This document shows, one piece after another, positions 3,409 through 18,714 of a DNA stretch of 35,808 nt. The notes under the pieces were generated by a model that was not told the DNA's origin, did no database searches, and saw nothing but the letters and a program-made list of their open reading frames with translations. Source of the stretch: Candidatus Peregrinibacteria bacterium (GTDB lineage: Bacteria; Patescibacteriota; Gracilibacteria; CAIRYL01); contig JACRHZ010000056.1 in NCBI GenBank assembly GCA_016220175.1, forward strand, positions 1-35,808. The letters run 5' to 3'. Every line of letters starts with the position of its first letter. Within the stretch, counting starts at the first letter, position 1. A program made the position numbers and the translations under genes.

Positions 3409-3497
3409 GGAGAAAGTTTGCCCGAAACTTCAAAAAATTGGAAATTGAAAAATATTTTTGTTTGTGTGAGAATTCCCTGGCATCTTTGTTTTTGTCT

Positions 3498-5231
3498 ATG
3501 AAAAAATTTCTTTTTTTTGTTCTTGTTACATCTTTAGGGGTTCTCTCTTCATGCAATATTAATGCTTTATTTGGTCGAGATAAGCCATTTTCTCTCGATG
3601 ATCGGATTATTGAAACCCCTCCAAAAGAAGAGATATCAAATACACCAGAAATTGTAACGGCAGAGGGAAATATTGTTGGCGTCGCATCTCAAGATGTGCT
3701 TCTCGGAAAGAAAACATATTTTCTCACGGATGATCAGGGACAAAATCTCTATACTCTTGATTTTGAATATGGAGATCTCGATGAGTACGGAGATGAAGGA
3801 AAAGTTCGAGTGAAGGGAGAAAAAGAAACACCTGAAGGCGCTTCCATTCCGAATTTAAAAGTATACACAATCGACTTTTTGGATATTCCAAATTCGGCAA
3901 AAGAAACAACATATACTTCTCAAGAGTTTGCATTTTCAATTATTCTCCCTCCCAAGTGGGTTTATCTTGAGGAAGATCAGCAACTCGCTCTTTTCATAAA
4001 CAAAAAAGAAACAGACCCAATCGTTACTTTTCAAAAATTCCCTTCAAATAGCCCTGAAGCGATTATGTATGCTACTGAGCAGGGCAGCGGAACAGAAATT
4101 TCTGTTGGAGAAAAAAGAGCATTCAGGTTTGTCCGCGGTTCTACAAAAGTTGATATATATATTCCCATTACAAGCGAAATTATTGTCATTCACTTTACTG
4201 GAAATGATGACCAAAAATCAGATTTTTATGATGTTCTTCTTTCTCTGAAATTTTCTCAAAATTCCTCAGCTTCTGTTCGTGAAGAAGCTGGTGAATGTGG
4301 CGGTAAGATTGGACTCAAATGTGTAGAGGGATTTCGATGTGAACTTTCTGGAGACGATTCCAAATCAAAAGGAATTTGTGTAAAAGCTGAGAATCCTCCA
4401 AAAGAAGTTAAAAAAGAGGAAGTGGCCAAAAAAGAAGAAAAGAAGACTCCTGAGCCGACTCCGAAAAAAATAGAACCAGTTCCTCCTCCAGAAAGTGCTC
4501 CTAAAAAAGAAGAGCCTCTTCCTGCTCTAAAAGAAACACTGAAAACAGAAAATGTAAATACCGATGCGGAAAAGGAAAAAGTACAAAAATATATTTTGGA
4601 AAATCTTTCTTCTTTATCGCCAGAAAAAGCTCCAGAAGGCGCTCTGTGGACGATAAAACTCTATGAATTTTCTGAGGGGAACTTAGTATCTGTGGAGTAC
4701 GTGAACTCCAAAGATCCAACAATGAAAAGAAAAATACTTTTTTTGTATGATGCGTCTGGACCTGAAATTTCTCTTACAGAAAAAGCGTTTTTTGTTCCCG
4801 GCGAAGAGTCAGATTGGAAGCTTCAAACAGGACAAAACCTTCAGGCAGGAAAGGCAAAAGATGTTTTCTCAGCAGAAGGGCAGAAAAAAACAAGCATTAA
4901 AGCAGGCTATAGCCTCTATGAAAGTACGTATTATAATTTTTCCGCAGGATATCCAAAAAATTATTATTATGCGAATTTAGGAGGTGTGAATGGCACCATT
5001 TCCACGGTGGCATTTACAACTTCTGCTCCCGTCAAAGAAGCGAATGCTGTCCTAAAAATCGAAATTCTTGACGGTGCAAAAGAAAAAGAAATAAAATCTG
5101 ATCGTGAGATTCTGCTTCCGCGAGATGGAAAATCACATTTCCGCTTCATTGCTTCAGAACAAGCCTCTCTTCAGGATCTCCAATACATGGTTGATTCGCT
5201 TATTTCCCCCACTTCATCCCCTACTCCATGA
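3498..5231 (+). CDS. Large secreted lipoprotein with Cys-rich module and K/E/P linker
   Basis: Start chosen at 3498 because it gives a textbook lipoprotein signal: MKK, a hydrophobic core, and lipobox GVLSSC with Cys19. The mature 559-residue protein would be anchored to the outer membrane face. Residues about 144-254 form a globular domain (FAFSIILPPKWVYLEE...), residues 265-298 a four-Cys module (ECGGKIGLKC..C...C), residues 300-348 a Lys/Glu/Pro linker, and about 475-568 a second domain with a similar opening (YYNFSAGYPKNYYYANLGG), hinting at an internal duplication. I do not recognise a named family or an enzyme motif. The stop overlaps the next gene's start (ATGA), so the two are probably co-translated. 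Confidence 0.8.
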   Translation: MKKFLFFVLVTSLGVLSSCNINALFGRDKPFSLDDRIIETPPKEEISNTPEIVTAEGNIVGVASQDVLLGKKTYFLTDDQGQNLYTLDFEYGDLDEYGDEGKVRVKGEKETPEGASIPNLKVYTIDFLDIPNSAKETTYTSQEFAFSIILPPKWVYLEEDQQLALFINKKETDPIVTFQKFPSNSPEAIMYATEQGSGTEISVGEKRAFRFVRGSTKVDIYIPITSEIIVIHFTGNDDQKSDFYDVLLSLKFSQNSSASVREEAGECGGKIGLKCVEGFRCELSGDDSKSKGICVKAENPPKEVKKEEVAKKEEKKTPEPTPKKIEPVPPPESAPKKEEPLPALKETLKTENVNTDAEKEKVQKYILENLSSLSPEKAPEGALWTIKLYEFSEGNLVSVEYVNSKDPTMKRKILFLYDASGPEISLTEKAFFVPGEESDWKLQTGQNLQAGKAKDVFSAEGQKKTSIKAGYSLYESTYYNFSAGYPKNYYYANLGGVNGTISTVAFTTSAPVKEANAVLKIEILDGAKEKEIKSDREILLPRDGKSHFRFIASEQASLQDLQYMVDSLISPTSSPTP

Positions 5232-5632
5232 AAAAACCACTGAGATTTCTTACAAGTGTTCTCGCTGGCATTACTCTCGGGATGCTTTTTGCGCCAAAAA
5301 AAGGCTCTGAGCTCAGAAGAGAGCTTTCAAGGAGTTCCGACAAACTTGGTACTTTTGGAAAGGAACTTCTTGCGGCATCAAAAGATGCGAGTGACGAAGT
5401 GCAAAAGTTTTTTTCTCGAAAAGAAGTACGAAGTCTTATTGATTCAGGAAATGCTGAGCTCAGTGATTTTTTGAAAATTGCCAAAAAACATGGATCGGAA
5501 CTTTCTGAGAGGGCTCGAACTGAGCTCGAATCTCTCGTAGAAAATATCGAGAAAAGGTCAAAACCTCTTCAGAAAGCGGTAAAAAAGAAGATCGAATCTG
5601 TAAGGAAAACTATTCAAAAGCATATGCAGTAA
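5228..5632 (+). CDS. YtxH-like small membrane-anchored protein
   Basis: A 134-residue protein with one N-terminal membrane helix (FLTSVLAGITLGMLFAPKKG), which is the YtxH-family signature, then a long charged helical tail rich in Lys, Glu, Arg and Ser ending in KTIQKHMQ. YtxH-type proteins are stress-associated in Firmicutes, but their function is poorly known. The ATG overlaps the lipoprotein stop by four bases, so the envelope location of both products fits. The next gene has its own promoter at 5645. Confidence 0.8.
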   Translation: MKKPLRFLTSVLAGITLGMLFAPKKGSELRRELSRSSDKLGTFGKELLAASKDASDEVQKFFSRKEVRSLIDSGNAELSDFLKIAKKHGSELSERARTELESLVENIEKRSKPLQKAVKKKIESVRKTIQKHMQ

Positions 5633-5644
5633 AGGGCGATCAGA

Positions 5645-5673
5645 TTGTATTTTGCCACTATTTTTGGTACAAT
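5645..5673 (+). promoter_or_regulatory. Promoter of the first large surface protein
   Basis: TTGTAT (5645-5650), a 17-base spacer and TACAAT (5668-5673), about 38 bases before the chosen ATG at 5711. A strong sigma70-type match that makes 5711 onward an independent transcription unit. Confidence 0.65.
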
Positions 5674-5710
5674 AGAGGGAATTCTGTACTCTAAAATTTG
5701 TCTGAGCGAA

Positions 5711-8413
5711 ATGCATTTTCATAAAACACAAAAAAACATTGTCGGAATACTCGCTATCTTTGCTGTGTGCGGAGGAATTTTTCTCGCTTCTCCTGCCTAT
5801 TCTGTTGAAATAGAAGAGAAACTTCAGTATGTGCACGTCAGCCTGCCAAATCCGAGCTCTCCCATTACCATCAATCCATTTGTCGACCCAAAAATTTGGC
5901 CAGACAAGGAAACATTTGAAATTCATGGCACCGCTGAGCAGGGGAAATTTATTAATCTCTACGCTTGGGCACTTGTTCCCGGAACAGATGGAAATACGAA
6001 CTCTGATGAGGTGATTACGAATTTTGATGGGAAAATTATTGATCCAAACAAGGTTGAACTTTCGTGGAGACCACGGACTCTCTTTACTCAGGAATATGCA
6101 GATGAACAATTTTCTCACGTGGGAACAACTTGTGAAATGCTCAAGACGAGATGCATTCCCAAAGACGGAGAAGAACTCGGAAGAATACCAACAAGTACCG
6201 ACCCAGATGACCTCATAAATGGACCTTGTCCAGACGGGAATGTTCCGAGTGCGCAAAACTGTGAACTTTCCAAAAAATTTACGGTCTACCACGAAATTGT
6301 AAAACCACATTTAGCAGTCCAGGGAGATGAGCGAGCAAAAATAGATCTTACGCTTCCAGGAAACACGTGGACTGATCGTGGTGGAAATATCCAGACATTA
6401 TCTTACGAAATTGATAATAATACTTTATTGCTTCATCCACAGTGTTCTCGAAGGATAGAAACTGACACCATTCCTATTTGCCATATTCCAGAAGCCTTGG
6501 GAGAGGCAGGCGAACCAGAAACACTTGTCGTAAAAGATCCTTCTCTCGGTCTTGCCGCTGATGAAGATAATCTTTTTGCTGTGCATGATCTTCATCTTGG
6601 TGATCTTATGGTATCTCATGCGAACTGTTCGAATGATCCAAGTAATCCTTCTCCATGTGATTGCCCGACAGATCAGTCGCATTGCCAACCGGAATACACT
6701 CCCGGAGGCTGGCTTTATGAACGCGGACCGCTTCCTCAAAAAAATCCTGATGAAACTCCAGGACCAAAACCACTTCTCACAACTGATTTGAGAGAAATTG
6801 AATATCACAAGCTTTTTGTTGATAATCCTGACGCTTATAAACCGTACATTGACCCTGTTCCAGAAATGCCATTAGAAAAACTCTGGGAAGACAAAATCAT
6901 TTCCCCAGGAAAATATTTTCCGAATATCACACAAAATTCCTATTCTTCCATGTACGTTTTCACATATTCCAATTACGCACGTGCAAAAAAGAAATTTGTT
7001 GATACAACGACATATTTTGCCTACGCATTTTATCCGATCAAAGATAAAACTGTTCTCGTTGATGCGTTCGATCAGTATGAACTTCGCGCTCTAGAAGAAT
7101 CAAAATATTTAGCCCAAGAAGGCGTGACGAGAGAAAATAGTATTCTTCTTAAAGTCATCAAAGATCCATCACTCGAAAAAGATGAAATTAAGTACGATGA
7201 ATATCCAGGGAAACTTGATCCCACTAAGGGATATTATTTTTCCATTTTTGAACTTCGGGAAGGCGGACAAATCAAACTTCCAAAATTTATTACAAATCCG
7301 ATTGACACTGAAGCTCCCGTTTCTCAAGATCACTGCTTTGTCGATGCAGTGACAGAATGGAGAGGAACAAAACCGTGTCCAAGTATTCTCGGACACATGA
7401 TTACCGCAACGAATGAAGTCTATGTTCCGCCGCTTACTCAAGATTCTGTTTCGGGAAAAGCAGTAAGGCAAATTCCATCTCCGGAAAAAGTAGAATGGGA
7501 AATTTATGAGAGGAAAGGAGAATACACAAATGATCCGATTGTGAGTGATGTGAATGGAACACTCAAAACAGGAGTGAATGGAGATGAAATTATTGCGATT
7601 CCAAAAATGCAAATGAATCGTTTTGCCGTGCATCATTTTATTACGGGAACATATCCTTCTGATGATACGAGGCAAACTTCAAATAAAAGTTCTACATTTT
7701 TTCTCGGTTCTCAAGGAGTTCAGAAAACATTTTTTAACATCAACACTCTTGTTTCTTCTGCGGTCAGTTTTACTCAGGCAGTAGATCCGTATGGAGTTGT
7801 ATTCGATTTTCACACAAAACAGATTGTTCCAAATGTTCACGTAGCACTTAATGGAAATCTCATTCGCTTTGAAGAGAAATTTTCATCTGTGCAAAAGACA
7901 TCGGATGATGGGCTTTTTTCATTTCTCGTAGAACCGGGAATCTATTTTCTCGATGTTCTTGAAGTCAATGGAAGGACGAATAACTTTGTGTATCCGAGTA
8001 CTTCATATCCACCAATTTCTGATGATGATATTAAAAATAAAAAAAATCTCAATTGTGGGACGGACAGCATTTTTTCCGATATTTATTGCCAAAAAAATCT
8101 TCCGATTGAAGTCGGAAAAGAAATTCAACATCGCGATATTCCGATTGAAGCTCCGCTTCGAGGAAATGTTATCGGAGGAGAAAAAAGCATGAAAGTGGTT
8201 CTTTCTGAAGGAGGAAAAGAAATTGATTCTGCTTGGACAGTGCCAAATGGAAACTTCAGCTTTTATGTTTCTCCGGGAAAATATGTCATCACAAAAATTC
8301 TGGATCAGTTCGGAAAAAATCTTCTTTCTGAGGAAGTCGAAGTCGAAGTTCAAAAAGATCAAGCGACGGGAAAAGCAGTGCTTTCGGATATTATTTCTGT
8401 ATCACTTGAATAA
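5711..8413 (+). CDS. Large secreted surface protein (paralogue 1)
   Basis: About 900 residues. The ATG at 5711 gives a good signal peptide (basic start, hydrophobic core, probable cleavage after ASPAYS). The mature protein is beta-rich, with two Cys-rich stretches (about 140-190 and 305-330) and two carboxypeptidase-regulatory-like beta-sandwich modules near the C terminus (about 695-760, DDGLFSFLVEPGIYFLDVLE; about 815-860, PNGNFSFYVSPGKYVI). No C-terminal anchor is visible. It is clearly paralogous to the product of 8597-10984: both share a W-x-P-R-x-x-F motif, VLVD-x-F-x-x-YE, YYFS-x-FE, and the two C-terminal modules in the same order. Function unknown; an extracellular structural or adhesion role is inferred. 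Confidence 0.85.
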   Translation: MHFHKTQKNIVGILAIFAVCGGIFLASPAYSVEIEEKLQYVHVSLPNPSSPITINPFVDPKIWPDKETFEIHGTAEQGKFINLYAWALVPGTDGNTNSDEVITNFDGKIIDPNKVELSWRPRTLFTQEYADEQFSHVGTTCEMLKTRCIPKDGEELGRIPTSTDPDDLINGPCPDGNVPSAQNCELSKKFTVYHEIVKPHLAVQGDERAKIDLTLPGNTWTDRGGNIQTLSYEIDNNTLLLHPQCSRRIETDTIPICHIPEALGEAGEPETLVVKDPSLGLAADEDNLFAVHDLHLGDLMVSHANCSNDPSNPSPCDCPTDQSHCQPEYTPGGWLYERGPLPQKNPDETPGPKPLLTTDLREIEYHKLFVDNPDAYKPYIDPVPEMPLEKLWEDKIISPGKYFPNITQNSYSSMYVFTYSNYARAKKKFVDTTTYFAYAFYPIKDKTVLVDAFDQYELRALEESKYLAQEGVTRENSILLKVIKDPSLEKDEIKYDEYPGKLDPTKGYYFSIFELREGGQIKLPKFITNPIDTEAPVSQDHCFVDAVTEWRGTKPCPSILGHMITATNEVYVPPLTQDSVSGKAVRQIPSPEKVEWEIYERKGEYTNDPIVSDVNGTLKTGVNGDEIIAIPKMQMNRFAVHHFITGTYPSDDTRQTSNKSSTFFLGSQGVQKTFFNINTLVSSAVSFTQAVDPYGVVFDFHTKQIVPNVHVALNGNLIRFEEKFSSVQKTSDDGLFSFLVEPGIYFLDVLEVNGRTNNFVYPSTSYPPISDDDIKNKKNLNCGTDSIFSDIYCQKNLPIEVGKEIQHRDIPIEAPLRGNVIGGEKSMKVVLSEGGKEIDSAWTVPNGNFSFYVSPGKYVITKILDQFGKNLLSEEVEVEVQKDQATGKAVLSDIISVSLE

Positions 8414-8590
8414 TTTTTAATTTTGAAATTTAAAATTTCTAAATAAATTCTAATTTTTAAGTCTTAATTTCTCAACATGAAAACTTTTCAAAAACAAACA
8501 CGACAAAAACAAAAAAAATAGAAAATAGAAATTAGAATTTAGACATTAATATTTATTTTGAAATTTCAAAATTTAAAATTAAAAATTTCC
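8413..8590. repeat. AT-rich inverted-repeat element, copy A (MITE-like)
   Basis: About 178 bp between two surface-protein genes, beginning at the stop of the upstream gene. The outer ~60 bases on each side are imperfect inverted repeats of each other (left starts AATTTTTAATTTTGAAATTT; right, reverse-complemented, starts AATTTTTAATTTTAAATTTT). A second copy in the same orientation lies at 11770-11946. No coding capacity. Could fold into a long hairpin acting as a terminator. Confidence 0.75.
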
Positions 8591-8596
8591 CACTCA

Positions 8597-10984
8597 ATGA
8601 AAAAACTCCTTTCTCTCTCTCTGGCTGTTCTCATTACATTTTCTGCCTCCGCACCAATTTTTGCGGCTGAAGATCGAGGGCTCACATATTCTCAAAAAAC
8701 TCTTTACGGAACTATTACAAAACCAAAAGGAGGAGAAGAAATTGCTATTACTGCCGAAGAAGAAAGTAAAGCGATTGCAGAGCTCATTGAAAAGCATAAG
8801 CCAATTGACTCTACGTTTGATATTCAGGGAACAGTTGGTCCAAATAAAACTGCATCGACGTATATTACGACTCCGATGCCGGAAGAAATTTCGAATTTTC
8901 ATATCGACAAAATTTCTGGCGACAGTATTACATTTGCGTGGAATCCAAGACCAGTATTTAACTATCTTGAGCAGGGAACATATGCGGTAAATTCCATTAG
9001 AAATATGGATGGACAGACTGAGGTCCCGCATTTTCAAAATGATGAGAATAAAATTGATTATTCACAAGTCGTGAAGAGAAATAAAGAAGTCACTCTTTCA
9101 TTTATTGATAACAAAAAAAATCCTCGTAATTTTGTTCCTGAACTAATACCTCCAAACGAAGTTCCTCAAGGTGCAGAAAATATTCATTCAACAGAACACT
9201 CTATAAGTGGAAGAGCTGTTAATTATGATTACGCTACTTCATGTACATACATACAACATTGGAATCTAGCTTGTGATTTAAACACAGGAAAGTGCCCCCC
9301 TGGAGCAGACAGATGTCTTAATTATCCTGTTCCAGTACAGGTTGATGCCACTTGTGAATATGATGTCGGATACACATATTTCTGGCAAGATCTGGATGGG
9401 AAAATAATAGGAAACAAAGTGAACAATCCGAACGTAAGTATTGACTATAAAATGCCTCTTCCAAAAGGAATTTATGAATTTATTCTTTGGATGGAAGTGA
9501 AGGTGAATGGAGAAGAAAATCCGCATCATCCTCCAATTTCATTTGTCGAGCAAAAAAGGGAAAGGATTGCAGAAAGAGAGACTTTCCGTGACTGGAATGA
9601 CTATGTACGAATTGCTGCTCGTGCTGGAAAAGAAAAAACAGATCCTCCAAAAGGTAAAGATGACAATGCAAGCGAAGGCGGCACGAAATCGGCGCCTGAT
9701 CCGGGAGAGTGTCCTCCAAGTCCCATTTGTGATCCAACATGTTTTAAGCCTCCATCAGGGAAATACGCAATTCACAACGAATATGTTCTCGTCGATGATT
9801 TTGAAACGTACGAAATTTGGTACAACGTGGCAGATGAATCGGAATCTGATCATCCATATTTACAGCATCTCGGAGTCACGAGAAATCCGGAAGTAAGCCA
9901 TAAAATTGATCTTGCGATCAGTGATCCCAGAATAACTGAAATTACCGTTCCATTCACAGATATCATTGATGACAATGGGAAAAAATTTGATCCTTCAAAA
10001 ACGTATTATTTCAGTCTGTTCGAAATTCAACGAATGAATACAATCGATGGAAAAGATCAAAGTGTAGTTCCTGTTGATCTTCAAAGTGCAACAAATGATG
10101 CGGGATATCTTTTTGCCGCGACAACACCGACCGGAGGAATGGAAATAAAAATAGAAAATGGAGAAGCCACATATCCAGAATATACGAATGCAAAAATAGA
10201 AGTAGAAATGAGAGGAATGACCGCAAAAGCAGATCAAAATGGGGTTTTTGAAATCCCAGATGTTTCGTATTTGAGTTTGAATCCAGCATCAACAATGCAT
10301 TCTATTTTTGCAACATACCTTTCGGATGATACGAAATTTGCTTCCAGTCAGGATGATAATGCGCTCTATCTGGGAGCAAATCGTGATGCATCATTTTTTA
10401 AGACTCAGGCGCTTGCGATGACTCCCCCACTTCTCAATATTGAAACCGAACCGTACGGAACCATATATGATTCATGGACAAAAGAACCCGTGAAAAATGC
10501 AGAAGTACGACTTTCGGGACTGTCCATCAATCGCCAAGGAGTCGAAAATCCATACGAACTTATTCAAGAAACGGGAAGTGATGGATTTTTCAGCTTCTTC
10601 GCCGCTCCCGGAAAATACGTTCTCGAAGTGCTTTCCATCAATAATAATCAAAATACTACCTATACTTTTCCAACAAAAGCACTTTTAGGACAATGCGAAA
10701 ACATTCGGAAAAACGGTGATGGAATTTATACGGATGTCTATTGCCGAGATCCGCTCGAAAATATTTTGATTGCTGACAAAATCCTCCACTATGACATTCC
10801 AATTGATCCAACGGTGCGAGGAGAAAATGCGCCGCCGAACAAAAAAGTGTATTTGAAGAATGCGAGTACAGGGAATATAGTTGACGAGAAAATCGCCACT
10901 CCCCAGGGAAAATTTTCATTCTTTGTTCCTCTGGGAACGTACACAGCTGAAGATGAAAATGGAAATCTTCTTTCAATACTTTGA
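8597..10984 (+). CDS. Large secreted surface protein (paralogue 2)
   Basis: A 795-residue protein starting at the ATG at 8597, which gives a signal peptide (MKKLLSLSLAVLITFSASA, likely cleaved before EDRG). It aligns by eye along most of its length with the 5711-8413 product: WNPRPVF near 115, VLVDDFETYEIW near 395, TYYFSLFEI near 470, ATYLSDDT near 575, and two carboxypeptidase-regulatory-like modules at about 617-681 (SDGFFSFFAAPGKYVLEVL) and 737-786 (GKFSFFVPLGTYTAE). A Cys/Pro-rich patch (CPPSPICDPTCFKPP) lies mid-protein. No anchor of its own; the next gene, 16 bases downstream, is a membrane-anchored relative and probably acts with it. Confidence 0.85.
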   Translation: MKKLLSLSLAVLITFSASAPIFAAEDRGLTYSQKTLYGTITKPKGGEEIAITAEEESKAIAELIEKHKPIDSTFDIQGTVGPNKTASTYITTPMPEEISNFHIDKISGDSITFAWNPRPVFNYLEQGTYAVNSIRNMDGQTEVPHFQNDENKIDYSQVVKRNKEVTLSFIDNKKNPRNFVPELIPPNEVPQGAENIHSTEHSISGRAVNYDYATSCTYIQHWNLACDLNTGKCPPGADRCLNYPVPVQVDATCEYDVGYTYFWQDLDGKIIGNKVNNPNVSIDYKMPLPKGIYEFILWMEVKVNGEENPHHPPISFVEQKRERIAERETFRDWNDYVRIAARAGKEKTDPPKGKDDNASEGGTKSAPDPGECPPSPICDPTCFKPPSGKYAIHNEYVLVDDFETYEIWYNVADESESDHPYLQHLGVTRNPEVSHKIDLAISDPRITEITVPFTDIIDDNGKKFDPSKTYYFSLFEIQRMNTIDGKDQSVVPVDLQSATNDAGYLFAATTPTGGMEIKIENGEATYPEYTNAKIEVEMRGMTAKADQNGVFEIPDVSYLSLNPASTMHSIFATYLSDDTKFASSQDDNALYLGANRDASFFKTQALAMTPPLLNIETEPYGTIYDSWTKEPVKNAEVRLSGLSINRQGVENPYELIQETGSDGFFSFFAAPGKYVLEVLSINNNQNTTYTFPTKALLGQCENIRKNGDGIYTDVYCRDPLENILIADKILHYDIPIDPTVRGENAPPNKKVYLKNASTGNIVDEKIATPQGKFSFFVPLGTYTAEDENGNLLSIL

Positions 10985-11000
10985 TCTCTTTTGTCTTCTC

Positions 11001-11777
11001 ATGAAATCAATCTCACATATTTTTCGCGGCATCTTCGTCATCAGTTTCATGCTGATGTGCTTTGCAGAGTTCACTCTTGCATCTGCAGCAGGACAAATTC
11101 CAGTTGAACAGAGAAATAAGAGGCAACTCGTAGTGCTCTGGCAGGAAAGCCAAGTATTCGGACAAGGATTTCATAGACCATATTCTGCACTTGTTCTTGA
11201 GGACGAAAATGACGATAAACTCTGGGAAGGAAATACCGACGCAAAAGGAGCTTTTAGTTTTCTTCTTCCTGTAGGAACAGTGAATCCAGCTCGCGAACAT
11301 ACACTTCTCCTCAAAGCATATGATCAATTTGGAAGAGATATTCTCAAGGATGACGGAACTCCCGATACTCTCAAAGCACGAGTGCTTCCGGGACTTCAGG
11401 CTGAAGGAAAAACTGATCCAAATGCTGAAATACTCCTTTTGGATTCGAGCGGAAAACTCCTCAATAAGTTTGAATCCGATGAGAATGGAAATTATGTCGT
11501 GTTTAACGCGCCGGAAGGCAGTACCCTGAAGATTCAGAAAGATGAAAAATACGTCGAAATTCCCTTTCAAAAAGACAATATTGGAAGTACATATGTAAAT
11601 GAAGGTTCAACTACGATTCCAAAGACAAATACCGATCCAAAGCAAAATTCGACTCCTTCTCAAGTTTCTGAGGCATCTGGATCTTCTCTTCTGTATATTC
11701 TCGGAGGAGTTGTCATAGCGGCACTTTTGGGAGTTGGGATTTTGTTCAGGAAGAAAAGAAAGGAGGAGAATTTTTAA
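11001..11777 (+). CDS. Membrane-anchored surface protein with C-terminal TM and basic tail
   Basis: A 258-residue protein with an N-terminal signal (core about 8-30), one or two beta-sandwich modules similar to those of the larger neighbours (DAKGAFSFLLPVG; AYDQFGRDIL resembles LDQFGKNLL in the first paralogue), a Thr/Pro/Ser-rich spacer, and a C-terminal helix (LLYILGGVVIAALLGVGILF) followed by RKKRKEE. That is a stop-transfer anchor like that of Gram-positive wall proteins but without LPxTG. The frame stays open upstream to a TTG at 10881, but the ATG at 11001 gives the signal peptide. The stop codon lies inside repeat copy B. Confidence 0.8.
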   Translation: MKSISHIFRGIFVISFMLMCFAEFTLASAAGQIPVEQRNKRQLVVLWQESQVFGQGFHRPYSALVLEDENDDKLWEGNTDAKGAFSFLLPVGTVNPAREHTLLLKAYDQFGRDILKDDGTPDTLKARVLPGLQAEGKTDPNAEILLLDSSGKLLNKFESDENGNYVVFNAPEGSTLKIQKDEKYVEIPFQKDNIGSTYVNEGSTTIPKTNTDPKQNSTPSQVSEASGSSLLYILGGVVIAALLGVGILFRKKRKEENF

Positions 11778-11946
11778 TTTTGAAATTTTATCCCGCAATG
11801 CGGGACTAAATAAATTCTAATTTTTAAATCTTAATTTCTAAAGATGAAAACTTTTTTAACACGGCAAAAATAAAAAAAAATTAGAAATTAAAAATTAGGC
11901 ATTAAGATTTATTTAAAAATTTCAAAATTTTAAATTAAAAATTTCC
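11770..11946. repeat. AT-rich inverted-repeat element, copy B (MITE-like)
   Basis: Same structure and orientation as copy A at 8413-8590 (shared runs such as AAATAAATTCTAATTTTTAA near the left and AAATTAAAAATTTCCCAC at the right). The left end overlaps and supplies the stop codon of the upstream gene. It differs by a GC-rich insert, TCCCGCAATGCGGGA, at 11791-11805, a perfect 6-bp hairpin with a 3-base loop. Confidence 0.75.
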
Positions 11947-11967
11947 CACAGTAAAACAAATATATAA

Positions 11968-14900
11968 ATGAAATCTATTCTCAAATACATTTTTGGTTCA
12001 CTTCTGCTTTTCCTTTCTTTTGGAAATGGTTTTGCATTTGCGGGAAATGTAGAAATTCATGTGCACAAAAATACGTATGACGGGGATGAATGGACGAGCA
12101 GTATTTACCCGATCAAAATAACGATAACTGATGTGGTGGCGGGAACTCCTCTTGGAATCACAGAAACGCACGGTCTTGATATTGATCCGGCTCTTGGAGC
12201 TTTAAAACTCAGAGACACTCCACTTGAATGTCATTTTGAGTGGCCAAATCCAGATCCAGATATTCCGGAAAAAATCATAAAAGACAAAAAAGTGAATGTG
12301 TACGAACAAATGCTCGCGGGAGAATTTATTGTTCCTCCAGTCCGAATCATCGATGAACGAATTTTGGTTGCCAATAAAGTTCCAAAAATTATGCCTTTTT
12401 GCGGAGGAAGTACAGAAGCAGAATATGATGAATTTGAAAAACAAATTGTGAATTCGGAAATCATGCCGGATAATCCATACCGAATTTATCAGAATTATCT
12501 TTCTCTGGCCACTGAAGGGAAAATAACGACCTCCATCGCCAAACCTCTTGAGCCGCAAAAAATAGATACGACAAATCCAGACCAAATTCTCGGATATGGA
12601 TGCCAAGTAGAAATGCGCGATGAAAAGGGAGAAATTGTAAGAGATAAAACTACTGGAAATCCGATCATGAAGAATGGACTTTGTGAAGCAAGTGGTGATG
12701 CAAAAATTGATCTCATCGTTCTTTCTGACGCAAGTGAGCCGGTTATTCGCGCAACCATTGATGATCCGCTCGTGCAAGGAGTGAATGCGGAAGTCAGTGA
12801 ACTCGTGACGATGGTGGGAAATTTTGCAATTCGAACGACATCACTTCTCGACTGGGCTCTCGCGATTGACGAAACTGGATTTCGAAATGAAAAAATCACG
12901 CTTGTCTATAATAAAGCGCTCAATATCGTGAATGGATTTTTCATTCTCGCGCTTATTATCATCGCACTTCTCTGGAATTTTTCCATGATCATTGCCAAAG
13001 AACAACTGAAACGAATGGTCATTCTTTTTGTGATTGGAGGAGTTTGTGTATATTTTGCACTTCCTCTCACTCGTCTTCTCGTTGATGGAACGAATATTCT
13101 CCAGAGAACACTCCTCGTGAAACAAGAAGCTGGCGATAGTGAAGTACAAAGTGCGATACAAGTGTACGGAGGGGAACTTGCTAAGCCTGGTCTTTCTGAT
13201 GCAGAGAGAACACGAATTCAAACCCAACTTGATGCTCTTCGAAATTCACTCAAAACAAAACGAATTTCGGCATCTGATATTCTTTCCGCGTACGATATCG
13301 ATTACGGAGGATTTGTTGGACTTCAAAAAACGATTTACGTTTCAAAAGATTATCCAACTGGAGATGATCTGACGGTAAATGATCAAAGTAAATTTGTCAT
13401 GAAAGATGATCTTTTTATTGATCGTTTTCAAGAACGAACATATTTCAATCTCACACTCATCGGGCTCGGCGCGATTGCACAATTCCTCATCGCCATGATC
13501 CTGCTTTTCAGATACGTAATTCTCTGGTTTCTCCTCATATTTTCCCCATTCCTTCTCGTACTTGCGCTCTTTAATACGACGAGATTCCTTTTCAGATATT
13601 GGGTATGGCTCTATGCAAGATGGCTTCTTATCGGACCAATTCTCGCGATGACACTATATATAGTCGTGAATATCTGGAGTCTTACCGGAGTACCACTTGA
13701 AAGTGCATACAATGCTCCGAGTAGCCTCATCTTTCCCAACACGACAAATTTGTATGTCGCCGCTCCCGGAGTTACTTCGGGCTATTTAAATACGCCACGA
13801 GAGGTGATGAAATATATCTCTGCACTCATGATGCTCTATATGGCAGTAATTCTCCCCTTCTGGCTCACGAGATATATTCGAGGAGAAATGCCAACACTCA
13901 GTGCAAAATTTTTCGAAAAAAAGAAAAAATTCTTTACTCCAGAAGGACCACTTACAGTTACGCCGACTCAAGAACCTCCACAAAAACCAGAACTCCAAAA
14001 ACCAATAAAAACAGAACTGAGCGAGATGCCAACCTTAAAAACAGACTTGACGAACATGCCTCCTGTTCCCGTAACTGTAGTGGCTCATACCGATTCACAA
14101 GGAAAAGAAACTGAAAAGGATAATCAGATTTCGACACAGCAAGTTACAAGAGAAGCAGGAACGAGAGAATCCACCAAAACGGAAACAAGTACGCACCAAA
14201 CTACGAGTACAAAAGACCTTATTAACACTCTGAATATTCTCCAGGCATCACAAACGCTGAGTAAGTCAGTTGATATGAAATCTGCCCGAATGGAATCGCA
14301 AAAAGATCGTATCGTAAGCGAGATCCAGAAACGCGCAGAACGGGGAGATACGATTGCCATAAAAGCAATAGGAAAAATCGATGCTACTGCTGATATTACC
14401 GCAAATGTAAAGGCAAAAGCAGATGTGAGTGCCAATGCAAAAGTTCACGCAGATGTCATTGCGACAGAAAGAAGGACAACGCATGTTACGCAAACTGCTC
14501 CGGATATATCATCTCCAGAACATAAAACTGCTGTCGGAAAAGCTCACGAAGAAATTGAAAAATCTTCGCTTGTGAGCCACGCAAATATTCGTGAACAAGT
14601 TGAAAGTGAGCAAAAAGCAAAATCGTTGGAGCGTGAAAAAGAAAGACTTGTCTCCAAAAGTCCTGTCGCTGAGGAAGTCACCCAGAAATCAAGAGAAGAC
14701 GCTCTCAAAAAAATGGTTTCAGGAAGTTCTCCTAAAGGACCAGAAGATGGAGTGCCTGAAAAAGGTCCGGACATTCCTCCTCAAAACGCGAAGAAAGAGG
14801 AGAAACTCAAAGCCCTCGGAAAAGAAGGTCCACCACAAGTTGATGCGCCACAGGGAACTCATGGTCCAAAAATGGCAGCAGCTCTCGATTTAGCTTCTCC

Positions 14901-15489
14901 ATCAGATACTCCGGATACCGGAGGCGAGCCGGAAGATGACAGCGATCTCTACGTTGAAAGAACGCATGAAAAGAAAAAGATGAAGACATTTGATGAAGAA
15001 CTTGATTTTGAAGATAGTGAAAATTCCGGAGAATACGAACCCCCAAACCGAGCCGAATCGAAAGGACAATTAGGAGTAAATGAAACAGAAGAAAAACTCG
15101 AAAGAGAGGGTGAAATTGAATCTATTTCAAGCGAGAAAATTTCACCAGTATTTGGGGAAAATTTTGAGGAAAATCTGAATACAAACATTTCCGCTACATC
15201 TGGAGAAAAACGTTCCGAGAGAAAAGCGCTGAGAAACGAGGGAGAAGAAAAAGATCTGAATGCACCCGATGATGACAATTCTGATCCACAGGATAAGAAG
15301 AAAAGTGGAAGTGGTGGAAATCAAAAAAATACAAAAGCTCAGAATTTTCCAGATGTTTCTGCGGATGATGACAAAGAGGAATCGGCTTCAAATCCAAAAA
15401 AAATAAATATTGAGGAAGAAATTGAACGAGAGGAAAAAGAAGAGAATATTACGGCTATTTCTCAGGATGATGAAAATAAGATCGCGTAA
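11968..15489 (+). CDS. VirB6/TrbL-like polytopic membrane protein with long cytoplasmic tail
   Basis: A 1173-residue protein. N-terminal signal (SLLLFLSFGNGFAFAG), then a ~290-residue external domain, then a cluster of membrane helices: about 316-340, 349-372, 493-570 (three to four closely packed, including RYVILWFLLIFSPFLLVLAL), and 613-632. This pattern fits the VirB6/TrbL channel component of type IV secretion systems. Residues about 640-1173 are hydrophilic and low-complexity, with Pro/Glu/Lys/Thr-rich stretches, Ala/Asp/Val repeats (KADVSANAKVHADV) and very acidic segments. No VirB4, VirB11 or VirD4 ATPase is in the window, so a complete secretion system cannot be claimed. It sits between the surface proteins and ClpC. 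Confidence 0.7.
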   Translation: MKSILKYIFGSLLLFLSFGNGFAFAGNVEIHVHKNTYDGDEWTSSIYPIKITITDVVAGTPLGITETHGLDIDPALGALKLRDTPLECHFEWPNPDPDIPEKIIKDKKVNVYEQMLAGEFIVPPVRIIDERILVANKVPKIMPFCGGSTEAEYDEFEKQIVNSEIMPDNPYRIYQNYLSLATEGKITTSIAKPLEPQKIDTTNPDQILGYGCQVEMRDEKGEIVRDKTTGNPIMKNGLCEASGDAKIDLIVLSDASEPVIRATIDDPLVQGVNAEVSELVTMVGNFAIRTTSLLDWALAIDETGFRNEKITLVYNKALNIVNGFFILALIIIALLWNFSMIIAKEQLKRMVILFVIGGVCVYFALPLTRLLVDGTNILQRTLLVKQEAGDSEVQSAIQVYGGELAKPGLSDAERTRIQTQLDALRNSLKTKRISASDILSAYDIDYGGFVGLQKTIYVSKDYPTGDDLTVNDQSKFVMKDDLFIDRFQERTYFNLTLIGLGAIAQFLIAMILLFRYVILWFLLIFSPFLLVLALFNTTRFLFRYWVWLYARWLLIGPILAMTLYIVVNIWSLTGVPLESAYNAPSSLIFPNTTNLYVAAPGVTSGYLNTPREVMKYISALMMLYMAVILPFWLTRYIRGEMPTLSAKFFEKKKKFFTPEGPLTVTPTQEPPQKPELQKPIKTELSEMPTLKTDLTNMPPVPVTVVAHTDSQGKETEKDNQISTQQVTREAGTRESTKTETSTHQTTSTKDLINTLNILQASQTLSKSVDMKSARMESQKDRIVSEIQKRAERGDTIAIKAIGKIDATADITANVKAKADVSANAKVHADVIATERRTTHVTQTAPDISSPEHKTAVGKAHEEIEKSSLVSHANIREQVESEQKAKSLEREKERLVSKSPVAEEVTQKSREDALKKMVSGSSPKGPEDGVPEKGPDIPPQNAKKEEKLKALGKEGPPQVDAPQGTHGPKMAAALDLASPSDTPDTGGEPEDDSDLYVERTHEKKKMKTFDEELDFEDSENSGEYEPPNRAESKGQLGVNETEEKLEREGEIESISSEKISPVFGENFEENLNTNISATSGEKRSERKALRNEGEEKDLNAPDDDNSDPQDKKKSGSGGNQKNTKAQNFPDVSADDDKEESASNPKKINIEEEIEREEKEENITAISQDDENKIA

Positions 15490-15512
15490 TTTGTAATTGA
15501 CGCACTTTCCCC

Positions 15513-15541
15513 TTCCAAAATCTTCAAAAATGTGATAGAAT
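15513..15541 (+). promoter_or_regulatory. Extended -10 promoter of clpC-like gene
   Basis: TTCCAA (15513-15518), 17-base spacer, TAGAAT (15536-15541) preceded by TGA, an extended -10. It lies about 60 bases before the ATG. No CIRCE-type repeat is seen. Confidence 0.5.
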
Positions 15542-15600
15542 GCTATGAAACTCTAGAGAAATTCCATTTTTAACACAAAAATACATTTTATCTTTGATCT

Positions 15601-18600
15601 ATGTTCTTCTCCAAAAAAAGCGACAATACGCCAGAGCAGTCGTCACAAAGGTCTGGAAATCCAACTTCTCCTACAAATTCTGCAGGAAAAGGAGCATCTC
15701 CTCAAACAGCACGAGTAAGCTCAAGCGCTCCGGCATCGAGTGCAGCAATAGATCAGTATTTTTCTGATAGCCTTCGCAGAGTGCTTATCGCTGCTGGTTC
15801 AGAGGCAAAAACGGTTAAAGCGCCGGATATTGATACCGAACATCTTCTCCTTGGGCTTCTCATGAAAAGAGATCAGGTTATGGAACAGATGTTTGAGAAA
15901 TTCCAGGTACGTCCAGACGAACTCGAACAATTTGTACGCGAAAGATTAAACCTCGGAAAGGAAGATCCGAAAAAACTCACTTTTTCGCCACGTGCGAAAC
16001 AAGCGCTTCTTTTTGCGGACGAAGAGCGAAGAAAATATAATCATCATGCAACAAATCCAGAACATCTTCTTCTCGCGCTTATTCGTGAAGGAGAAGGAGT
16101 TGCTGCCCAAACTCTCAAAAAATTTGGAATTGAAATGGACCTTGCAGATTCAGTAGTAGAAAGTGTTGTTGGTCATGGAGAAGAAAAAGATGTACTCACC
16201 GGAAATGGAGAAACGCCATGTCTCGATCAATTCGGAGAAGATCTCTGCGCCAAGGCGCGAGAAGGAAAGCTTGATCCCGTCATTGGTCGTTCACAAGAAA
16301 TAGAGCGAACAGTTCATATTCTTGCTCGCAGAAGAAAAAATAATCCAGTACTTATCGGAGAACCGGGAGTTGGAAAAACTGCCATTGTTGAAGGTCTTGC
16401 TTTTCGAATTGTCACCGGAAATGTTCCTGATATTCTGAAAGGAAAACGAATTGTTGCGGTGACGATAAATTCTCTTTTGGCAGGAGCTTCCAAGCGAGGC
16501 GAATTTGAGGAACGTCTTCAAAAAGTCATTAAGGAAGTAATTAATTCCAAAGGAGATGTAATTCTCTTTATCGATGAAATTCACACGCTTATTTCTGAAG
16601 GAAGCACTGATGCGGCAAATATTCTAAAACCGCCACTTGCAAGGGGAGAACTCCATTGTATTGGCGCAACAACTACGGGTGAATATCACCAATATATCGA
16701 AGAAGATGCTGCTTTAGAACGCAGATTTCAACCGGTTACTATTCCGGAACCAAGCGTTGAAGAAACATACGAAATTCTTCAGGGAGTGCGTGATAAATAC
16801 GAAGCATTTCATAAAGTAAAAATTAGTGATGAAATTCTCAAACTTGCGGTAAAACTTTCAGATCGTTTTGTAAATGACCGATTCCTTCCGGATAAAGCGT
16901 TCGATCTCATCGATGAAGCGAGCGTAATGTGTAAAATTCCTTCTCTTGCCATGCCGGAAAATATCAAGAAACTTCAGCATGAAATTGAGAGGCTCAAATC
17001 AGAGGAAGAACGAGCGAAACAGGTAATTAATCTTGAAGAAATTACACGACTCGAAAAAGCTATTGAGGCAAAGCAAAAGAATCTCGAAGAAGAAAAACAA
17101 AAGATTAGTGATGAAAAAGCGACAGCGCACGATGAAATCCAGCCGGAACATCTCCAGAAAATTATTTCTCGTTGGACTGGCGTTCCCATCGAAAATCTCA
17201 GCACATCAGAAACAGAAAAACTTATGTCTCTCCAGGATGAAATGCACAAAAATGTGATCGGACAAGAGATCGCGATTAATGCCCTCGCTCAGGCTGTAAG
17301 AAGAAGCAGGGCCGGAATTAAAGATCCGACGAAACCCATTGCCTCTTTTCTCTTCATGGGACCAACAGGAGTGGGAAAAACAGAAGTATGTAAGGTTCTC
17401 GCCCTGAATCTCTTTGGAACAAAAGAATCCGTCATTCGCTTTGATATGAGTGAATTTATGGAGAAACACGCAGTTTCAAGACTTCTCGGACCTCCTCCCG
17501 GATATGTGGGATATGAAAAAGGCGGAGAACTTACTGAAGCGGTGAGAAAACATTCATATTCGATTGTCCTTTTCGATGAAGTGGAAAAAGCAAATCCTGA
17601 TGTATTCAATATTCTTCTCCAAATTCTCGATGACGGAAGAGTGACTGATAATCACGGAAGACTCGTGAGTTTTAAAAATACGATTATCGTATGTACTTCT
17701 AACCTTGCTTCAAAAACTATTTCCGAAGCATATCAAAATGGAGTGCCAAAAGAAGTGGATGCAAAGGATAAATTCTTTGATTCTCTTCGAAAAAGAGTAT
17801 TACCGGAATTGAAACAATTCTTCAGACCGGAACTTATTAATCGATTTGAGGATGTTATTTTCTTTGAACCGCTCACGATTGAACATATCGTAAAAATCGT
17901 AGACATCATGATCGCGAAAACCAAAAAGCTTCTTGCAGAAAAAGATATTACGCTCCACATCAGCAACGCCGCCAAGAAACATATCGCCGAAAATGGTGGA
18001 TTTGATCCAGAATTTGGCGCACGTCCTCTTCAAAGAGCCATTCTGCGTCTTGTGGAAAATCCCCTTTCTGACTCGATTATTATGGGCGAATTTGTTCAAG
18101 GCGATCACGTCGTTGTGGATGCAGGGAAAAGTGAGTCTGGAAAAGCAGAACTTGTTTTCAAAAAAGGTGTCCGCGGAATGGATGAAAATGAAGGAGAAAT
18201 TTACTTCACGGAACAAGAAAAAACTCAAACAGGAGTGCTCGGCGATATTGAATCCGCAGTTAATTCGGAAAGCGTCGCAAATACTGTTTCTTCTCCAGCA
18301 TTTGATGAGAAAAATGGACTTGTGTCCTCAGATGATATTGAAGCACTCAAACATGAAGGTCTGACCGATGAGCAGATTCAGACATTTTGGAAACAAGATA
18401 CAACGCAGGGAAATATGTTTGTATTCCAATTTAAAAATCCGAATGAATTCCAGTCCCTTGAAATATTTGCCGGAATGGAAAAAGATATCAAGGAAAAGGT
18501 GTTACAGCTTTGGAATAAAACCCATCCTGATGCTCCGAGCGCTGCTCTGATAAACACTCAAGCAGAATCTGGACTCCAGAAATCAGTTTCAAAAGAAGAG

Positions 18601-18714
18601 TCAGAAAAGGCAGCGGGACTCGAGAAAGTTCCAGTCGCAGCCTCAGAAGCAACCTCAGGAAATACTGCTCCTCAAGACTTCGAATTTGTGGATGGGCACA
18701 TTGTGAGCAACTAG
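15601..18714 (+). CDS. clpC: ClpC-type AAA+ unfoldase with N- and C-terminal extensions
   Basis: A 1037-residue Hsp100 protein that unfolds substrates with ATP. After a ~48-residue Ser/Pro/Thr-rich leader come two Clp-N repeats (about 50-200: [24 protein letters not shown]). NBD1 has Walker A GEPGVGKT at 253-260 and Walker B ILFIDEIH at 321-328. A short ClpC-sized middle coiled coil lies around 460-510. NBD2 has GPTGVGKT at 587-594, FDEVEKA near 658 and GARPLQRA. The region where ClpC or ClpA carries the ClpP-binding (I/L/V)-G-F loop (about 700-745) shows no such tripeptide. Residues from about 860 to 1037 are a non-Clp acidic tail. No clpP is nearby. Its place after the VirB6-like gene suggests a linked role. 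Confidence 0.9.

Follow-up and report, generated by a model that had tools for sequence, protein, structure and literature searches.

A divergent extended VirB6-like protein and its neighbouring surface proteins as probable parts of a dispersed type IV secretion system in a Candidatus Peregrinibacteria genome

The window (the whole stretch of DNA analysed, contig C56, 35.8 kb) contains a gene encoding an extended VirB6-like protein, named here VirB6-I, downstream of three genes encoding the surface proteins A, B and C. VirB6-I is probably a divergent extended VirB6 of a Patescibacteria type IV secretion system (T4SS) whose genes are dispersed, and A, B and C are probably lineage-specific surface proteins of this same T4SS. 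The system looks like a known machine in scattered and modified form, and not like an entirely new one. The organism is a Gracilibacterium in a broad sense, tiny and probably dependent on a host. The genome has 1.49-Mb in 79 contigs and is estimated to be 96% complete. The genome assemblies compared are drafts, and include G007 (Candidatus Gracilibacteria McD1.9), an order-mate of the window genome, G008, another genome of this order, and G018, a class-mate belonging to family f12.

Results

Genes of the window

The genes considered are the following:
3438-5231, + strand: flanking lipoprotein gene, in a neighbourhood common with G008.
5228-5632, + strand: flanking YtxH gene, in a neighbourhood common with G008.
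5645..8413, + strand: A, large Sec-secreted protein by its sequence signals, ~900 aa from ATG 5711, paralogue of B, with a prealbumin/CnaB-like module in its C-terminal part.
8558..10984, + strand: B, large Sec-secreted protein by its sequence signals, ~795 aa from ATG 8597.
11001..11777, + strand: C, predicted membrane-anchored surface protein with signal peptide, two beta modules, C-terminal TM and basic tail.
11968..15489, + strand: VirB6-I, extended VirB6-like protein of 1173 aa.
15601..18714, + strand: ClpC-like AAA+ protein of 1037 aa, with extra tails and without the ClpP-loop tripeptide; neighbour gene.

The last five are the consecutive plus-strand genes described in the earlier note, and all were found as ORFs at these positions. 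The sizes that it gave for the secreted pair, about 900 and 795 residues, are reproduced when the ATG of each signal peptide is taken as the start (900 aa for A and 795 aa for B). An AT-rich imperfect palindrome with arms of ~60 nt is located between A and B (window 8411-8590) and another one between C and virB6 (window 11775-11945). Similar copies are present in many other stretches of the genome (L041, L055, L057, L058, L059, L103 and others), and therefore it is an interspersed repeat.

Surface proteins A, B and C

A and B are paralogous, as had been proposed, with a match of 29% over 452 aa (E 5e-38). C, of 258 aa, carries a signal peptide and, in its C-terminal part, a TM with KKRKEE after it. 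These sequence signals predict Sec export for A and B and membrane anchoring for C. The description of C as an anchored relative of A and B holds for the anchor, but the likeness is weak (E 0.02-0.03 in BLASTP; E 3e-4 and 40% probability in profile comparison). Only ~16 nt separate the stop codon of B from the start of C, and for this reason both genes look like one transcription unit. The structure model of B has low overall confidence: its C-terminal domain is well modelled and the rest of the protein is without usable model. This domain belongs to the prealbumin/CnaB type, and its Foldseek matches include Gram-positive pilins and an adhesin-type protein. A PDB sequence search with A and B gave maltose-binding matches at chance level. 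In a profile search of 79 genomes, the A/B family is restricted to the window genome and G007; it was not found in the other carriers of VirB6-I, G008 included. A, B and C show no homology to the secreted neighbours of VirB6-I in f10, f12 and G008. A, B and C share with the LPXTG adhesins (PrgB of pCF10) a large size, secretion or anchoring at the surface, and genes that accompany those of a T4SS. Unlike them, they show no sequence relation to these adhesins, no polymer-adhesin domain among the Pfam and NCBIfam matches and no LPXTG anchor; C has a weak, sub-threshold anchor match without LPXTG.

The VirB6-like protein of the window

VirB6-I contains a signal peptide, an outer domain of ~250 aa, a TrbL-like membrane core (residues ~277-640) and a charged tail of 533 aa. 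Its hydropathy profile shows the signal peptide and five TM peaks, and helices are also present in the structure model. Since the N-terminus would be outside after signal-peptide cleavage and basic residues follow the last TM, a cytoplasmic position is expected for the charged tail. The earlier assignment to VirB6/TrbL is upheld by the homologues and not by the window copy, which reaches 17.8 bits against Pfam TrbL/VirB6, under the cut-off of 25.9. TrbL is matched by eight of the 12 aligned rows of the VirB6-I family, and the two homologues checked exceed the curated cut-off, with 27.4 and 40.7 bits. Among the Foldseek matches of the structure model, which is of low confidence, R388 VirB6 chains appear without significance (E 1.7-4.1). 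With VirB6-I, a PDB sequence search gave no VirB6 match and a scan of viral contigs gave no match; when genome contigs were scanned with the core alignment, the sole match was McD1.9. Extended VirB6 proteins with long hydrophilic domains are known from several T4SSs (PMC12857230), and VirB6-I has in common with them about five hydrophobic helices and large hydrophilic domains. Unlike them, its sequence is extremely divergent, and it carries the signal peptide, the outer domain and the charged tail mentioned above.

A single-sequence search detected members of the VirB6-I family in 10 further genomes of this class, and they group by order in the tree. Their distribution is patchy and linked to pilins: in family f10 and in G018, two or three T4SS_pilin (PF18895) genes come after VirB6-I, none of which is found in the window. 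This arrangement in class-mates points to VirB6-I as part of the known Patescibacteria T4SS, and its homology and linkage indicate a putative inner-membrane component. In the virB6-I gene of G018, in-frame TGA codons are numerous, which is expected under code 25 and agrees with a Gracilibacterium, in the broad sense, as the organism of the window. A conserved membrane protein is encoded divergently to VirB6-I in f10 (L028:7632-8639, L029:6540-9107, L030:7011-8018, L031:9367-10449 and L033:6719-7795); it is YidC/Oxa1-like by eye, and the one scanned showed no Pfam match.

A second VirB6-type family

Profile search revealed a second VirB6-type family, which is class-wide and without Pfam match. 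The window genome thus contains both families; its member of the second one has 833 aa and is encoded on C72, clustered with a conserved protein of 164-208 aa and two others of lower conservation. The two families align in a single profile comparison (99.3%, E 1e-20), and the tree parts them cleanly (100/100). The class-wide cluster, at L102:3395-10217, L105:6192-11717, L107:5637-11685 and L108:8571-14032, combines the second VirB6-type family with a membrane protein of 164-208 aa and two variable proteins. It likely represents the core T4SS translocon of Gracilibacteria. According to a 2025 survey, VirB6 homologues are absent from Gracilibacteria, ‘suggesting extreme sequence divergence’ (PMC12102498). 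Unlike the surveyed systems, two VirB6-type families are found here, and both are candidates for the VirB6 thought to be missing from Gracilibacteria.

Other T4SS genes in the genome

A VirB4 is encoded on C73 (NCBIfam NF045971 equivalog, 369 bits, cut-off 325), with a Walker A and a Walker-B-like motif, and a TrwB/VirD4-like ATPase on C46. There are 15 PF18895 matches above the cut-off, on C58, C73, C59, C4, C6, C21 and C8. Homologues of the three pilins that trail VirB6-I in class-mates are located on C58 (two, adjacent) and C4. The T4SS is therefore present but dispersed over other contigs. Thus, the absence of a classical T4SS ATPase, claimed earlier, is correct for contig C56 but not for the genome. 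The five genes are not a self-contained apparatus, and the undescribed apparatus proposed in the earlier note gives way to a VirB6-like protein belonging to a T4SS with VirB4 and pilins on other contigs; a VirB6-like protein with a T4SS elsewhere is one of the outcomes that the note itself had named as speaking against it. Two unusual proteins carry the T4SS_pilin domain: one of 1294 aa (L036:1336-5220, on C73) has it at the N-terminus, together with PKD repeats, and another of 3542 aa, partly masked (L058:8033-18661, on C21), has it at the C-terminus, with three TMs.

The closest known system is the Patescibacteria T4SS (MPF_FATA-related; Southlakia epibionticum type; PMC12102498, PMC10633639). 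Both have a VirB4 of the monoderm conjugation type (CD1110 family), multiple sequence-divergent VirB2-like pilins, a polytopic VirB6 and no relaxase seen among the sequences scanned. Unlike the known system, the genes here are spread over several contigs.

Linkage of B and C to T4SS genes

In G007, an operon contains, in this order, a T4SS pilin (185 aa), a B homologue (534 aa, E 3e-27) and a C homologue (221 aa, E 2e-9), the latter with the same layout of signal peptide, modules and TM as C. Each adjacent pair of genes shares a 4-nt overlap, ATGA. Surface proteins had been tied to a secretion machinery in the earlier note, and this operon of a related family bears it out. The B-C pair adjoins virB6 in the window and the pilin in G007, where VirB6 is not beside B-C; the linkage thus comprises two genomes of two genera. 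The chance of an operon adjoining a pilin locus in G007, which has about nine pilin-bearing contigs, was estimated at ~2%, small but not negligible. Because VirB6-I lies beside pilins in f10 and f12, the simplest history would be one ancestral cluster that was fragmented in a different way in each of the two lineages. The VirB6-I or pilin loci of other lineages also show large secreted neighbours, non-homologous to A, B and C. Large secreted proteins are enriched beside VirB6-I/pilin loci (14/51 vs 32/348, p 6e-4), about fourfold in odds; this result is suggestive only, since signal peptides were called by a simple rule and some of the loci are related. Divergent from the G007 operon is a gene for a 1236-aa cysteine-rich secreted protein (L061:10144-13854), which shows no homology to A/B.

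The ClpC-like ATPase

The 1037-aa protein is an AAA+ of the ClpC/ClpB type and has extra tails, as described earlier, one at each terminus. It has in common with ClpC/ClpB unfoldases the Clp_N domain, two AAA+ modules, both Walker A motifs and the D2-small domain. Unlike them, it has the extra tails, and at the ClpP-loop position it shows NGV where the C13 ClpC of the same genome has IGF. This protein is one of three Clp ATPases of the genome; the others are the C13 ClpC and a ClpB-like protein encoded on C45. The C-tail of the window protein has no match in 78 relatives. The sole close orthologue in the order (62%) is in G008, located ~3 kb from the lipoprotein and YtxH orthologues, with no A, B, C or VirB6 between them, and away from VirB6. 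Therefore, clpC belongs to the flanks, and A-B-C-virB6 either was interposed there or was lost from G008. ClpC had been counted as a member of the set; no conserved co-location with VirB6 or A/B/C was found in the neighbourhoods, and its membership was rejected. The G008 orthologue is split into two ORFs (L132:6787-10259) and has a long acidic insertion at the ClpP-loop position.

Discussion

In the proposed mechanism, VirB6-I would be an inner-membrane part of the translocon together with VirB4, as the genome content suggests, and the pilins, judging by their family, would assemble a pilus or a stalk. C would sit in the membrane and A and B would leave by Sec. Linkage and domain type are consistent with an adhesin or pilus-accessory role of A and B, with C, in host-cell contact, in which A and B would take the place that LPXTG adhesins of the PrgB type have in Gram-positive T4SSs. 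This putative role of A, B and C in host contact or in a pilus is the weakest step of the mechanism; that the system serves to attach to a host cell, or to exchange material with it, can reasonably be supposed. ClpC would be an independent neighbour.

A, B and C could also be general surface proteins (coat, S-layer-like or ligand-binding) located beside virB6 by chance, the T4SS part being only the VirB6-like protein. Their limitation to two genomes and absence from other VirB6-I carriers agree with this, as do a genome rich in secreted giants and the prealbumin-like modules, common in many surface proteins. However, both genomes have a T4SS gene next to B-C, in one of them within a translationally coupled operon, and secreted giants are enriched at VirB6-I/pilin loci; this reading is the less likely one. 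An origin of the A-B-C-virB6 block from a mobile or conjugative element that entered between YtxH and clpC and left this remnant would fit the patchy distribution of VirB6-I and the conserved neighbours of G008, which lack the block. Against it, the block has GC and GC3 like its neighbours and long intact ORFs, VirB6-I sorts by order in the tree, and neither a plasmid match for VirB6 nor a phage match for B was found; this origin, very improbable, was rejected.

With A, B and C read as lineage-specific surface proteins of the T4SS, a wider claim can be made tentatively, as a possibility still somewhat doubtful: these would be the first surface adhesin or pilus-accessory parts tied to a Patescibacteria T4SS, alongside two divergent VirB6 families, and the host-contact end would be lineage-variable. 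The survey of these systems found no adhesins in the phylum, PrgB-type ones included (PMC12102498); here, the surface proteins A, B and C are linked to the T4SS. In the only Patescibacterium studied by genetics, epibiotic growth requires the T4SS (PMC10633639). With two VirB6-type families and a pilin-coupled surface pair, the parts list of the Gracilibacteria T4SS would become more complete and would offer named targets for tests. If the wider claim is true, the host-contact end of the Patescibacteria T4SS differs between lineages.
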